NCBI GenBank assembly: GCA_002789015.1
Contig: PFSJ01000004.1
Span: 1-37,863, forward strand
DNA length: 37,863 bases
DNA from: a candidate division WWE3 bacterium CG_4_9_14_0_2_um_filter_35_11
GTDB taxonomy: Bacteria; Patescibacteriota; WWE3; 2-01-FULL-39-13
Direction: 5' to 3'
Under the pieces are notes generated by a model that was not told where the DNA came from, did no database searches, and saw only the letters and a program-made list of their open reading frames with translations. A program made the translations under genes and the position numbers. Positions 13,093 through 30,938 of the stretch are shown here, one piece after another; within the stretch, counting starts at the first letter, position 1, and each line of letters opens with the position of its first letter.

Positions 13093-13800
13093 TCACTTAG
13101 AAATAATAGGGAAGTTGATCAAAAAACTTTCAATCCCCATCGACACATTAGCATTATTTGACCTTATTTTTTCAACTACCTCCATAAGATAAATCAAATT
13201 CTCTTGGCAAGCTTTTGTACTCAAATTAATTGAGTTGCCATTCTTACCTAGTGAGTCCAAAAGCATATTCCTTAAAAACATCTGCCAATTTTTCAAAAAC
13301 TCAACCGCAAATACTCTATCCTTAAATTTTGACTTGCTACTTGAAAACCAGTCGAACCTTTCCCCAATATCCATACTTATAACTTCAATAAACTCATCAA
13401 ATGAGTCGCCAGAAGAAAAAGAAGTGGAGGATTTTTGTGGATTTTTAATCCTCGTGATAATGCATCTAGATAAAACTGTATCAATTAAATTTTTTGGATT
13501 ATCAACTGATAAAACAATTTGAAGATATTCCGGAGGCTCCTCTATTAATTTGAGCAAAGAATTTTGAGCCTCAACAGTCATTAATTGGGCATCCTTAATT
13601 ATGGCGACTTTTTGAGTTGAATTAAGTGGGCGCAGGCTCGCGAACTTTATAAGTTCGCGAGCCTGCGCAATCGATATTTTTTTCCCACCCTCTGATTCAA
13701 TTAACATAGAATTACCATCTATCTCGGATAGCTTATAATTCTCTGTAATAAAAGCGTCTCTTGATTCTTTATTTTCTGACGTGATAATTAACGTTTGCAT
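13093..13800 (-). CDS. holB: DNA polymerase III delta-prime-like subunit
   Basis: ISIAQARELIKFASLRPLNSTQKVAIIKDAQLMTVEAQNSLLKLIEEPPEYLQIVLSVDNPKNLIDTVLSRCI. Confidence 0.85.
   Translation of the reverse strand: MQTLIITSENKESRDAFITENYKLSEIDGNSMLIESEGGKKISIAQARELIKFASLRPLNSTQKVAIIKDAQLMTVEAQNSLLKLIEEPPEYLQIVLSVDNPKNLIDTVLSRCIITRIKNPQKSSTSFSSGDSFDEFIEVISMDIGERFDWFSSSKSKFKDRVFAVEFLKNWQMFLRNMLLDSLGKNGNSINLSTKACQENLIYLMEVVEKIRSNNANVSMGIESFLINFPIISK
13631..13669. repeat. Intragenic perfect palindrome (18-bp arms, 3-nt loop) in holB
   Basis: GCGCAGGCTCGCGAACTT-tat-AAGTTCGCGAGCCTGCGC. Confidence 0.95.
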
Positions 13801-15660: not shown

Positions 15661-16740
15661 ATGTCCAAAGAATATTTAATTGACGAACTTTTAACAAAAA
15701 TGATAAGTGAGAAGGCGGAAGACCTGCACTTAAGTGCAGGTCTTCCGCCGACAGCGCAAATCGCAGGCGATTTGCGCCCACTTCCTGGATTTGGCGTTTT
15801 TGACAAAGAAGAAACAACTTATTTAGTAAGCCAATTATTTACAGAAGAACAAATCGCCATACTCTATGAAGAAAAAGAGTTAAATTCTCTTTATGAAATG
15901 GATGATAAATCACGTTTCAGGGTCAATGCATATTTCGAAAAAGGTAGACTTGCTGTTGCCATAAGATTAATTCTGTCACATATTCCTACACTCGACGAAT
16001 TAAATTTGCCGCACATTTTGTATGAATTTTGCAAACTTCCGCAAGGTCTTGTAGTTTTATCTGGAGCATCTGGTATGGGAAAATCTTCAACAGCCGCCGC
16101 CATGATAAATTGGATAAACCAAAATCGAAGCGTCCATATTGTAACAATAGAAGACCCAATAGAATATATTTTTGAATCAGACAAATCACTAATTCATCAA
16201 AGAGAATTATACGTAGATACGTTAAGTTGGACACATGCTCTTAAAGCATCATTAAGGGAAAGTGCGGATGTAATTTTTATTGGAGAAATCCAAGACACAG
16301 AAACAATGTTGCTTGCCATTACAGCTGCAGAAATGGGACACCTCGTAATAACTTCACTTCATTCATACTCAACAGTACAAACAGTAGATAGAATTGCGGG
16401 AATGTTCCCAGAGCAACAACAATCTCAGGTAAGAATGCAATTGGCATCAGTCGTCGAAGGCATAATAAATCAAACATTGGTACGAGGCGTTGATTCAAGT
16501 AAAAGATATCCTGCTGTTGAAATAATGATTGCAAACTCTGCGATAAGAAATACGATTCGCGAAGGCCATTCACACTTTTTACACAATTTAATTAACACAA
16601 GCGGAGACCTCGGAATGATTACTATGGAAAAATCACTTGCCGAATTAGTAATAAACGGAAAGGTTAATTTAGAAGATGCGTTAACAAAATCAACAAACAC
16701 AGATGAAATTATTAGATATACAAAAATCCGATCAAAATGA
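15661..16740 (+). CDS. pilT: Type IV pilus retraction ATPase PilT
   Basis: AEDLHLSAGLPPTAQIAGDLRPL, SGASGMGKSSTAAAMINWIN, IEDPIEYIF. Confidence 0.92.
   Translation: MSKEYLIDELLTKMISEKAEDLHLSAGLPPTAQIAGDLRPLPGFGVFDKEETTYLVSQLFTEEQIAILYEEKELNSLYEMDDKSRFRVNAYFEKGRLAVAIRLILSHIPTLDELNLPHILYEFCKLPQGLVVLSGASGMGKSSTAAAMINWINQNRSVHIVTIEDPIEYIFESDKSLIHQRELYVDTLSWTHALKASLRESADVIFIGEIQDTETMLLAITAAEMGHLVITSLHSYSTVQTVDRIAGMFPEQQQSQVRMQLASVVEGIINQTLVRGVDSSKRYPAVEIMIANSAIRNTIREGHSHFLHNLINTSGDLGMITMEKSLAELVINGKVNLEDALTKSTNTDEIIRYTKIRSK
15714..15749. repeat. Intragenic perfect palindrome (18-bp arms, no loop) in pilT
   Basis: GGCGGAAGACCTGCACTT|AAGTGCAGGTCTTCCGCC. Confidence 0.95.
15754..15777. repeat. Second intragenic palindrome (11-bp arms, 2-nt loop) in pilT
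   Basis: GCGCAAATCGC-ag-GCGATTTGCGC. Confidence 0.95.
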
Positions 16741-17973: not shown

Positions 17974-19944
<1,971 letters not shown>

Positions 19945-24324: not shown

Positions 24325-26463
24325 ATGAAGTTCCTGCTTGTTAAAGTCCCGCATAACAATGAATACACATACGAGCAAGGATTAGCACTGATATCAAGCC
24401 TTGTTTCAAGATCTCCAAATCGCAATATTTTTTCATTTTCAAAATCAAATACAACAATTTATTCATTCAACATAATTTCAGTAAGCCAAAACATATATTT
24501 TATAATTGGAACAAAAGAAACAGAGCTTATACATCTCAAAAATCAACTTTTAGCTCAATATGGAAAAGCAGATGTTATTGACCTTGATTCTTTCGAACAA
24601 ATTGGAAATGTGAATTTTGCAAACATACAATTCGCAGAATTAAACCTGTCAAAAAGCGGAAATCTTCCGATAAAAACAATGACAGGGTTTCAAGACGTTG
24701 ACCCACTCGGATCAGTTTTATCAAGCATGTCCAGATCACCAGATCCAAATGCACTTTTCTGGATTCAAATTATTCTTACACCAGCAAATAATAATTGGCA
24801 AAAAAGAGCATCATCAAGAATCAATGCAATTAATGCATCTGAAATAAAATCACAAAGGATGCAAACTGAAAGCACCTTAATACAAGAAAAAATAAAATAC
24901 TATGGATTTAATGCAAACATAAGATTAATTTCAGACACATATGCAAATATCAACTATATGTCTGGAGCATTTAGTATTTTTTCAGAACCAAGTGGGAACT
25001 CACTATCAATCAAAAATCCAAATATATTTAGCAAAACAAAATTACAAACTGCAATTGCAACGCATTCATCATATGGAACTTCAAACCTATTGAATTCGCT
25101 AGAAATTGCGACGTTATGGCACCTGCCATCAGGATCACTTAACATTCCAAACATTAAATGGGGAAAAAGGCTTCAATTAGATCCACCAGAAGATTTGCCA
25201 ATTGCACGCGAAAATTCAACTGATGAAGAAAAAAAAGACATTACATTTATTGGAAAAGTTAACTATAAAAATAGAGACCACATATTCGGAATCAAATCCA
25301 AAGACAGATTAAGACACGTTTATATCGTCGGAAAAACAGGAACAGGAAAATCATGGTTCATAGATAACATGGCAATAGAAGATATTAGAAAGGGAAACGG
25401 CGTCGCCGTGCTGGACCCGCACGGCGACGCCATAGACAACATAATGGAATACATTCCAAAAAATAGAATCAATGATGTCTGCTACTTTAATCCAGCCGAT
25501 CCAGAATACGCATATCCACTCAATATATTAGAGGTCAAAAATGAAAACCAAAAAGAGCTTGTAGTTTCAGGCATAATTGCAATCTTCTACAAATTATATT
25601 CTGAATCTTGGGGTCCACGTCTCGAACATATACTCCGCAATGTATTATTCACACTCGTCGAAGCTGAAGATGCAACACTTCCAGATGTTATGAAAATACT
25701 ACATGATAAAAAATATCGAGATAGCGTGCTCCAAAATGTCGATGACCCACAATTACATCAATTCTGGAAAAAAGAATATGAAGCAATGAGCGAAAAATTC
25801 ATGAGTGAAGCTATTTCCCCAATATTAAATAAGGTCGGTCAATTTGTAACTTCACCTTTGATTCGAAGAATAATCGCTCACAAAAAGTCAAAAGTTATAA
25901 TATCCGATTTAATGAATAACAAAAAAATATTTCTCGCCGATCTTTCCCAAGGAAAGATCGGCGAAGACAATGCAACACTTTTAGGATCAATGCTAATAAC
26001 ACAAATCCAAGTTGCGGCAATGAATAGAGCTTTTCAAAAAGAAGAAGATCGTATTCCATTTTATTTATACGTCGATGAGTTCCAAAATTTCGCTACATCA
26101 TCATTCACAAAAATTCTTTCAGAAGCAAGAAAATATAAATTAGGATTAACCCTAGCAAATCAATATATTACCCAGATTGACGAAAATGTTATGGGAGCTA
26201 TACTAGGTAACGTTGGAACGATTGCCTGCTTTAATGTAGGAGCAAGAGATTCAGAAATTCTTTATAAGGAATTTGGAACCAGCATTGATGCAGAGGATTT
26301 AACCTCACTTGATAGCTATCAAATGATTATTAAGATGATGATTTCAAGCGTTACAACAAATGCGTTCACATATTATTCGCTCCCTTTGCCTAAAAATAAA
26401 TCAGGGCACAGGGAAAAAATAATAGGCCATTCAAGAAAAACTTATGGTATTAAAATTAATTAA
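24325..26463 (+). CDS. HerA/VirD4-like (conjugative transfer-type) ATPase
   Basis: VYIVGKTGTGKSWFIDNMA Walker A, GVAVLDPHGD Walker B, LADLSQGKIGEDNATLLGS, YVDEFQNFATSSFTKILSEARKYKLGLTLANQYI. Start set at internal Met just after the gyrA stop. Confidence 0.88.
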   Translation: MKFLLVKVPHNNEYTYEQGLALISSLVSRSPNRNIFSFSKSNTTIYSFNIISVSQNIYFIIGTKETELIHLKNQLLAQYGKADVIDLDSFEQIGNVNFANIQFAELNLSKSGNLPIKTMTGFQDVDPLGSVLSSMSRSPDPNALFWIQIILTPANNNWQKRASSRINAINASEIKSQRMQTESTLIQEKIKYYGFNANIRLISDTYANINYMSGAFSIFSEPSGNSLSIKNPNIFSKTKLQTAIATHSSYGTSNLLNSLEIATLWHLPSGSLNIPNIKWGKRLQLDPPEDLPIARENSTDEEKKDITFIGKVNYKNRDHIFGIKSKDRLRHVYIVGKTGTGKSWFIDNMAIEDIRKGNGVAVLDPHGDAIDNIMEYIPKNRINDVCYFNPADPEYAYPLNILEVKNENQKELVVSGIIAIFYKLYSESWGPRLEHILRNVLFTLVEAEDATLPDVMKILHDKKYRDSVLQNVDDPQLHQFWKKEYEAMSEKFMSEAISPILNKVGQFVTSPLIRRIIAHKKSKVIISDLMNNKKIFLADLSQGKIGEDNATLLGSMLITQIQVAAMNRAFQKEEDRIPFYLYVDEFQNFATSSFTKILSEARKYKLGLTLANQYITQIDENVMGAILGNVGTIACFNVGARDSEILYKEFGTSIDAEDLTSLDSYQMIIKMMISSVTTNAFTYYSLPLPKNKSGHREKIIGHSRKTYGIKIN
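25399..25431. repeat. Intragenic palindrome (13-bp arms, 7-nt loop) in the HerA-like gene
   Basis: GGCGTCGCCGTGC-tggaccc-GCACGGCGACGCC. Confidence 0.95.
25934..25964. repeat. Second intragenic palindrome (14-bp arms, 3-nt loop) in the HerA-like gene
   Basis: TCGCCGATCTTTCC-caa-GGAAAGATCGGCGA. Confidence 0.95.
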
Positions 26464-27895: not shown

Positions 27896-28921
27896 TTATC
27901 GTTCTCGTGAATGGAATTTTTCGTGAATCTCTTTTAGATGTCTATTTGTAACATGAGTATAAATTTGTGTTGTCGAAACATCTGAATGTCCAAGGAGTTC
28001 CTGAACAGAACGCAAATCAGCACCAGACATAAGTAAATCAGTTGCGAATGAATGCCTTAAAACATGTGGCGTAACATCAACTGATAATCCAGCCATCCTC
28101 GCATATTTTTTAACCATACGCTGAATCGAACGCGGAGTTAATCTTAGTGACTCACCATCACGATCATTGTCATCCATAAGTTTTCCACTGTATCTTACAA
28201 ACAAGGGTTTATATGGATCTTTTCTAGTGAAAATGTATTGTTTTAACCATTTTGACGCAGATTCAGACAAGTAAACAGTTCTTAACTTGCGACCTTTTCC
28301 TACTATCGCAAACTCTCTCTTATCAATAATTTGAGGCGAAAGATTATCGCGATTAAGCCCAGATAGCTCACTAATTCGCATGCCAGTACTAAAAAGTAGC
28401 TCGAGGATTGCACGATCTCTAACACCGCTTTTTTTACTTAAATCCTGAACTCGAACAAGATCCTCAATTTGGCTTTCATTTAAAAACTTTGGAACTCTTG
28501 GCTCCGTTTTTCCTAATGTAATTTTATCTGGAGCTAAAACAGAATTAAATCCGCGTTCAACAATTAAATATCTCAAGAAGGAACGTAATGCAGTTAAATA
28601 TCTATTTTGAGTATTAAAACGAATAGGTTTATTACTTTTTCCGCTAATTTTTCTATTAAGATATAACCTAAAATCACGAACTACATCTTGAGAGATTTCT
28701 TTATAACTTACGACGTCTGATTTTGAGGAACCATGAACCCAGGTTGCAAATTCTTTAAGATAAAAATGATACATCTTAATCGTTCCTTGAGATAAATTTT
28801 TTTCAACTTCACAATATTGCAAAAAATCGCTTACAAGACGTTCAACGGAAATGGAAGACTTTGAGGTTGTTTTTGATTCTGACAATGTGCTTATCGCACT
28901 GTCATTTAAGTTTGTCGGCAT
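27896..28921 (-). CDS. xerD: Xer-type tyrosine recombinase
   Basis: SAM-like N-domain; LLFSTGMRISELSGLNRDNL, HVLRHSFATDLLMSGADLRSVQELLGHSDVSTTQIYTHV (R-HxxR-H/Y). Start set at internal MPTN. XerC vs XerD not resolvable. Confidence 0.93.
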   Translation of the reverse strand: MPTNLNDSAISTLSESKTTSKSSISVERLVSDFLQYCEVEKNLSQGTIKMYHFYLKEFATWVHGSSKSDVVSYKEISQDVVRDFRLYLNRKISGKSNKPIRFNTQNRYLTALRSFLRYLIVERGFNSVLAPDKITLGKTEPRVPKFLNESQIEDLVRVQDLSKKSGVRDRAILELLFSTGMRISELSGLNRDNLSPQIIDKREFAIVGKGRKLRTVYLSESASKWLKQYIFTRKDPYKPLFVRYSGKLMDDNDRDGESLRLTPRSIQRMVKKYARMAGLSVDVTPHVLRHSFATDLLMSGADLRSVQELLGHSDVSTTQIYTHVTNRHLKEIHEKFHSRER

Positions 28922-28985
28922 TAACAATAAAGTACGACGTCTCACAACTAACGTCAATAGGATTTAGGGCCCCACTTTTAATATC

Positions 28986-29252: not shown

Positions 29253-29280
29253 ACGTCGTAAAATATACCTTTTACGACGT
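29253..29280. other. Candidate dif-like Xer recombination site (11-6-11 bp)
   Basis: ACGTCGTAAAA-tatacc-TTTTACGACGT, perfect 11-bp inverted repeat around a 6-bp centre, 332 bp upstream of the Xer start. Confidence 0.5.
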
Positions 29281-29652
29281 CACGTGCAGGAGCTACAGCG
29301 AGTGTCACAATTAAGGATAAGATAGAAAAATAGGGAAACCAACATTAATTACGAGTGAATTACGGCCGAATTTCCTATTTATATCCCCCAATTATTTTAT
29401 ATTCCATGGAAAATAGAACTTAATTAAATACCAAATTAGGATGTACTCGACTTATCCACAAGCAAGACACCAGACCGATATCGCTATCACTACAACATAT
29501 AACTTGACAAACCATGACAAACTGACCGATAGTATTCATGGCTAGGATACGCCTTTCGGGTCACGCGGATACGTCGCAAAATGATATGACGAAACACCCT
29601 ATAGTTTTTTGGCGAACTTCCCTATTTCTTCTATCAAAACTTAGAATTTGCT

Positions 29653-30459
29653 TTAAAGAAAATTTGTAATTAGATATAGAAAACTCAATATTAATAAGCT
29701 ATCAAGAAGCAACCGATTCGATATTCTATGTATTAAATAATTATTAATTAAGTTAGAGGTCACAAACAGGGCCCCAGCGGAAAGCATGCCCCGAGCAAAA
29801 TCCTCAAGCGGATAGAAAACTAGTATTATCGATACCTCAGACAAAAATACATAAGCAAAAACGCTCAACCTTACAATTGTTATTAGCTTGCTCTCCGGAC
29901 TATTCAGCGCCCCTTCCATCATATAAAACCAACGTATAGACCTAAAAAGTAAATAATAAAAGGCAAGGAAAAAAGCTGATTGAATAACTAAACTAACGAC
30001 CGGGTATTCAACATAAGGAGAAAACTTATAAATAATAATTGAAGAGAAAAAGACAGTCATTAACTGATACGCATAAACAACGGATTTTGCTGGTTGTAAA
30101 AGAGGAATGGTCTCCTCGCTTGACTCGGAAACTATGTAAATGTTAATTGATAAAAGCAAAAGATAAAGCCCAAAAGAAGAAGCAAAGATATATGCGAGCT
30201 TTGGGTAAACGCTAAGAGTAGGAAAAGCATCCAAAACAAGCATCGCTGAAAACGCACAAAGCGAAACAAACATCACTTTAAAAAACACCCCTCGCCTATT
30301 CTTAAAAATCTTGCGAAACGAATAAATCAAGATACCAATAAATCCAAATACAAAGAATGAAACAATATATGAGTTTTTTTGCAAACCAAAAGAATACAAT
30401 AAAATATTAAATATAAAATAAAGAAAGGAAATTATAAGAAAGTAAATCTTTTTGCTCAT
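29653..30459 (-). CDS. Polytopic membrane protein of unknown function
   Basis: Multiple hydrophobic helices; upstream gene ruvC in same orientation. Confidence 0.65.
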   Translation of the reverse strand: MSKKIYFLIISFLYFIFNILLYSFGLQKNSYIVSFFVFGFIGILIYSFRKIFKNRRGVFFKVMFVSLCAFSAMLVLDAFPTLSVYPKLAYIFASSFGLYLLLLSINIYIVSESSEETIPLLQPAKSVVYAYQLMTVFFSSIIIYKFSPYVEYPVVSLVIQSAFFLAFYYLLFRSIRWFYMMEGALNSPESKLITIVRLSVFAYVFLSEVSIILVFYPLEDFARGMLSAGALFVTSNLINNYLIHRISNRLLLDSLLILSFLYLITNFL

Positions 30460-30461
30460 TT

Positions 30462-30938
30462 TTAGCTAACTTTTATCTGATGACAAATCGCCATTGCTAA
30501 TGCATCTGAAGCATCAATGCCTTTTTTCTTTAGAATATCTTCTCCAAGATATTCGGCAACTTTTTCTCTAACAGCTTCTTTTTCTGATCTTCCATAGCCA
30601 GTTAAAACCATTTTCGCTTCTAACGCCGTATATTCGAAAACGGGAAGCTTGAACTTTCCAGCGACTAAAATATGAATTCCCCTTGCTTGACCAACTGTTA
30701 ATGCAGTTTTGACATTCGTATTAAAAAATAATCTTTCAATAACAAGGATATCAGGAGAATGTTTCTTCACAAGTTCAACTGAACTATTATAAATTTTTAA
30801 AAGTCTCTCTGACATTAAATTATCTTTTGAAGTTACGATTCTTCCATAATCTAATAATTTCATAGAAGCTGAAGTCGACACCTCAATAACTCCATAACCA
30901 GTCTTTGCGGTACCAGGATCAATCCCCATAATTATCAT
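30462..30938 (-). CDS. ruvC: Crossover junction endodeoxyribonuclease RuvC
   Basis: [52 protein letters not shown]. Confidence 0.95.

Follow-up and report, generated by a model that had tools for sequence, protein, structure and literature searches.

The 28-bp element upstream of the xer gene in the analysed DNA is very probably the dif site of the chromosome, served by a single Xer recombinase. The analysed stretch of 37,863 nucleotides, hereafter the window, belongs to a candidate division WWE3 (Katanobacteria, Patescibacteria) genome of 750,652 bases (~0.75 Mb) in 31 contigs. The basis for the assignment is the uniqueness of the site in each genome, its class-wide conservation, its linkage to xer, its co-occurrence with the linked Xer, the presence of FtsK with a gamma domain, and the change in polarity of a KOPS-like motif at the site. 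From these features, we infer binding and cleavage by Xer, strand exchange, activation by FtsK, and the cellular role of Xer and dif. Recombination would fuse two sister chromosomes into a dimer. Septal FtsK, guided to dif by GGGNAGNG/TAGGGNAG motifs, would then bring both dif copies together and activate two Xer dimers. One Xer protomer would occupy each 11-bp arm, and Xer strand exchange over the 6-bp centre would release the monomers.

The features around the site are listed in Table 1. The perfect 11-6-11 architecture described in the first-pass annotation, which was made from the sequence, is correct in coordinates and letters. In the orientation of xer, the site reads ACGTCGTAAAA GGTATA TTTTACGACGT. 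It has the geometry of dif sites, that is, ~28 bp with two ~11-bp arms and a centre within 6-8 bp. A perfect 11-6-11 palindrome is expected by chance ~0.01 times per window of such composition (1 of 100 Markov resamples). The genome-wide search that the annotation proposed as a check, with up to 3 mismatches allowed, found 1 copy of the 28-mer in the source genome; at the same threshold, it is also single within the window. The site is intergenic, in a ~700-bp non-coding stretch between the membrane-protein gene and xer, 331 bp ahead of the ATG of xer. This membrane-protein gene is the usual upstream neighbour of dif-xer in several families.

Table 1. Coordinates of the predicted dif site and associated features in the window.
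Feature	Positions	Strand	Description
dif site (predicted)	29253..29280	.	11-bp arm ACGTCGTAAAA, 6-bp centre TATACC, 11-bp arm TTTTACGACGT
xer	27896..28921	-	341 aa from ATG; ORF open to TTG 28957; PF00589; E. coli XerD as closest solved structure
Half-site ACGTCGTA	28933..28940	-	Directly ahead of xer start
Second half-site TTTTGCGACGT	29571..29581	-	Opposite side of dif from xer; also in G002 (L002 about 1201-1211)
KOPS-like motif TAGGGAAG (+ strand reading CTTCCCTA)	29617..29624	-	Oriented toward dif
Further KOPS-like motif	13107	+	Oriented toward dif
Multi-pass membrane protein gene	29653..30459	-	268 aa, no family; conserved; flanks dif-xer intergenic region
ruvC	30462..30938	-	Next gene of conserved neighbourhood; in G002 also 5' of site

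One further perfect 11-6-11 palindrome is present in the window, at 15718. It belongs to a longer palindrome, GC-rich and without a gap, within a gene. The window has several GC-rich perfect or near-perfect palindromes of ~31-40 bp (13630-13668, 15714-15749 (and 15754 on), 19161-19200, 25399-25431, and 25934-25964), all inside ORFs, including gyrB and pilus/TraG-like genes, in a genome of 35% GC. They resemble in-frame palindromic insertions.

The site is conserved beside xer in relatives, as the first-pass annotation expected of a dif site. A second species of the genus (G002) has arms identical to those in the window, with GATGCA as the centre instead; the Xer of this genome agrees at 89%. 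A 28-bp element is also found upstream of orthologous xer in other families of the order and throughout the class. The class consensus in xer orientation is ACGTCGTTAAA-CATACA-TTATACGACGT. A sequence-only profile (R1), built from 20 distinct sites, was scanned genome-wide over 45 class genomes. The xer orthologue is present in 40 of them, and 36 of these 40 genomes with an intact xer match have a strong site. The four misses are two genomes with xer near a contig end (G030 and G043), one with a diverged candidate beside xer (G013), and one with a divergent Xer (G017). The profile scan found no site in any of the four genomes without xer (G003, G008, G009, and G010). G037 also has the site, next to an xer that is present although broken across two frames. 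This broken xer beside dif (L202 1503-2593) is a frameshift or an assembly error.

Site and xer share a contig in 35 cases, and in all of them the site is 5' of xer, at a median distance of 394 bp; this linkage is somewhat favoured by the profile, because R1 was trained mainly on sites initially found near xer. The xerS/difSL-like arrangement anticipated in the first-pass annotation is thus borne out. The distance is within 1 kb in 33 of the 35 and ~4 kb in two genomes (range 67-4152 bp). An earlier scan of 380 phylum genomes with a consensus pattern agrees with the profile: there is one site per matching genome, and all matching genomes are within the class. No match to the site with up to 3 mismatches was found in other Patescibacteria classes in these 380 genomes. 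Multiple copies at gene ends, which the annotation had named as evidence against dif, did not appear. Departures from a single copy are confined to three genomes: G014 and G037 each have a second, weaker match, and G023 has what looks like a duplicate at a contig end.

A tyrosine recombinase adjoining a palindromic core site is also what would be seen if the site were the attB of an integrative element and Xer its integrase. However, Xer is orthologous class-wide and lies in a housekeeping context (ruvC, yebC, and the membrane protein), and a search of 2.9 million viral contigs with the site pattern found none that carries it. The site occurs only once in the genome, so an attL/attR pair is lacking. 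Moreover, an att site would not be located where the KOPS-like motif converges. An attB origin of the site is extremely improbable.

The site could instead act as a terminator or other RNA hairpin, or as an operator of xer, and as RNA, the window copy has a favourable fold (z -4.2). In some genomes, half-sites also lie close to the start of xer: ones similar to ACGTCGTA in G002, G001, and G004, and related ones in G006, G014, and G024. However, there is no terminator call on the window site, and Rfam showed no match to an RNA family in the dif-xer intergenic region. Across the 20 distinct sites, the pairing covaries no more than in shuffles, and most sites have broken inner pairs. Conservation therefore lies in the sequence rather than in a stem, and a conserved stem-loop was rejected. 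The variable distance between site and xer also speaks against these readings, and the location of the site ~4 kb from xer in two genomes argues against a promoter role. Both the RNA and the operator explanations can hardly be considered credible. The half-sites near the xer start may have another use; as a guess, it is possible that Xer binds its own promoter or autoregulates through them.

The first-pass annotation saw only one Xer gene. This stands for the cognate recombinase of the site, but a second conserved Xer-like tyrosine recombinase is encoded elsewhere in the genome. Two XerC/D-like tyrosine recombinases are conserved in the class: the linked Xer (P0001) and an unlinked protein of ~290 aa (P0002). 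P0002 is conserved in 39 of the 45 class genomes and scores 157 bits to XerC. In the source genome, P0002 (orthologues L010 and L194-L199) is encoded at G000:C2:10561-11427, beside an FtsB/DivIC-like gene.

In a two-recombinase dif of the XerC/XerD type, Xer would bind one arm and P0002 the other. The wide conservation of P0002 is compatible with such a site, as are the class-consensus arms, which are slightly unlike at their inner ends (TTAAA vs. TATAA). However, both arms have the outer ACGTCGT, the arms are identical in the genus of the window, and the P0002 gene is unlinked to the site. The four genomes with P0002 and without P0001 (G003, G008, G009, and G010) all lack the site, and the site, in some cases of perfect consensus, is kept in five of the six genomes without P0002 (G005, G014, G020, G028, and G037); these counts come from related genomes, some of them incomplete, and so are not independent events. 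Because the site is absent with P0002 alone and kept without it, it follows the linked Xer and does not track P0002. Co-occurrence does not support P0002 as an obligate partner of Xer, and the two-recombinase type is very unlikely. The genomic comparison therefore supports a single-recombinase system, as the annotation had proposed from the symmetry of the arms.

The linked Xer aligns with E. coli XerD along its length, and the catalytic R/K/H-R/H/Y residues are all present. In XerD, a pair of residues, R-Q, contacts FtsK-gamma (PMC5357621), and the residues K-E of Xer align with this pair. This calls for caution about a direct activation of Xer by gamma. The FtsK motor domain is observed in 44 of the 45 class genomes, and FtsK with the gamma domain in 42, including the source genome (G000:C10).

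A G-rich family of words containing GGGNAG is oriented toward the site from both flanks, and its polarity changes at the site. Polar words were discovered in three single-contig genomes and tested in ten others. In these ten held-out genomes, GGGNAGNG is found 267 times toward dif and 58 times away (p=3e-33), and GGGGAG shows a ratio of 254:89. The ratio for TAGGGNAG is 245:26 in 13 genomes; the pooled data also served to refine this word, so the exact value does not count as a held-out result. At random pseudo-sites, the polarity of TAGGGNAG is absent (~1:1). The best switch point of GGGGAG has an offset of 0 from dif, and dif is among the best-scoring switch points of TAGGGNAG in 12 of the 13 genomes. 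Counts in the window are few, 2:0 for TAGGGNAG and 5:1 for GGGGAG toward vs. away. In the family of the window, where counts are also small, all TAGGGNAG copies and nearly all GGGGAG copies point as expected. KOPS of E. coli is GGGNAGGG (PMC2680272). Some other candidates for KOPS were rejected. The generic skewed words GTTGTT and GGTTTT do not switch at dif; GGAGGAGG is polar in the discovery genomes and 9:10 in the ten others. The matched parts, Xer, dif, FtsK-gamma, and the KOPS-like motif, are testable in E. coli, and culture of the organism is not needed.

In the three single-contig genomes, dif is located 92-109 degrees from dnaA. The first-pass annotation had expected a GC-skew extremum near the site, and this was found in part. 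With ~45% of the genome sampled in each case, the gene-strand-corrected GC-skew switch of G044 is near dif (750 vs. 774 kb), that of G040 is about 190 kb from dif, and in G033, positions of 340 and 190 kb fit about equally. Thus, GC skew is only partly informative as a locator of dif, and it is the polarity switch of the KOPS-like motif that falls at dif instead. The offset between dif and the skew switch could also come from assembly error or recent inversions. In Thermococcales (archaea), dif sites are also positioned off 180 degrees from oriC (PMC2958812, PMC5357621). The WWE3 dif would mark the terminus precisely, which is of use in closing genomes and in estimating growth rates of these uncultured cells.

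Inverted pairs of 28-bp Xer-like sites are observed in Saccharibacteria (L095 6861/6979, L104 9043/9175, L113 8910/9030, and L120 3588/3710). They have ACGTCGC-type arms and reverse-complementary or nearly reverse-complementary centres, and the two sites are 118-132 bp apart. In each case, the pair brackets a short stretch resembling a promoter, which separates two similar type IV pilin genes of divergent orientation, a few kb from xer. This stretch looks like an Xer-driven invertible promoter that switches pilins. The literature search found nothing resembling such an arrangement. As a tentative and rather doubtful proposal, the WWE3 class could have a division-time segregation terminus, marked by dif and the convergence of the KOPS-like motif, that is set apart from the usual fork-meeting place, marked by the GC-skew switch; Saccharibacteria may have co-opted an ancestral linked Xer and its ACGTCGT-type arms for flipping the pilin promoter.

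The literature search found no report of a dif site, Xer specificity, or a KOPS motif for Patescibacteria. By analogy, the WWE3 system would work like XerS/difSL and XerH/difH, being a member of neither. XerS/difSL of streptococci and lactococci likewise has one recombinase, a site right beside its gene, and FtsK-dependent chromosome dimer resolution (PMC5357621). However, difSL has a length of 31 bp and an 11-bp centre, whereas the WWE3 site measures 28 bp and has a 6-bp centre, and the WWE3 Xer scores 126 bits against the XerS model, below its cut-off of 267. XerH/difH of Helicobacter and Campylobacter shares the single recombinase, the site near the gene, and similar arms (PMC5357621), but the match of the WWE3 Xer to XerH is weak and restricted to the C-terminal part (E 7e-14, vs. 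5e-42 for XerD), which places it outside XerH.

XerCD/dif of E. coli is alike in the 28-bp, 11-6-11 site, in the centre (TGTATG in WWE3 vs. TGTATA in E. coli), in 6 of 11 identical positions in the left arm, and in the KOPS core GGGNAG. E. coli XerD is the closest to the WWE3 Xer in the solved-structure search. In contrast to E. coli, WWE3 has one recombinase, near-symmetric arms, and a site linked to xer, and its Xer is below the curated cut-offs for XerC (248 vs. 335 bits) and XerD (243 vs. 330). XerA/dif of archaea also combines a single recombinase with a 28-bp 11-6-11 site, and the dif of Sulfolobus is close to xerA (PMC2958812, PMC5357621). The WWE3 Xer is just under the XerA_Arch cut-off (211 vs. 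220). Archaeal XerA seems to work without FtsK, whereas the WWE3 site is accompanied by FtsK-gamma and the KOPS-like motif. A linked single-recombinase dif module with an XerC/D-like enzyme, distinct from XerS and XerH, bears on the origin or the collapse of two-recombinase systems.
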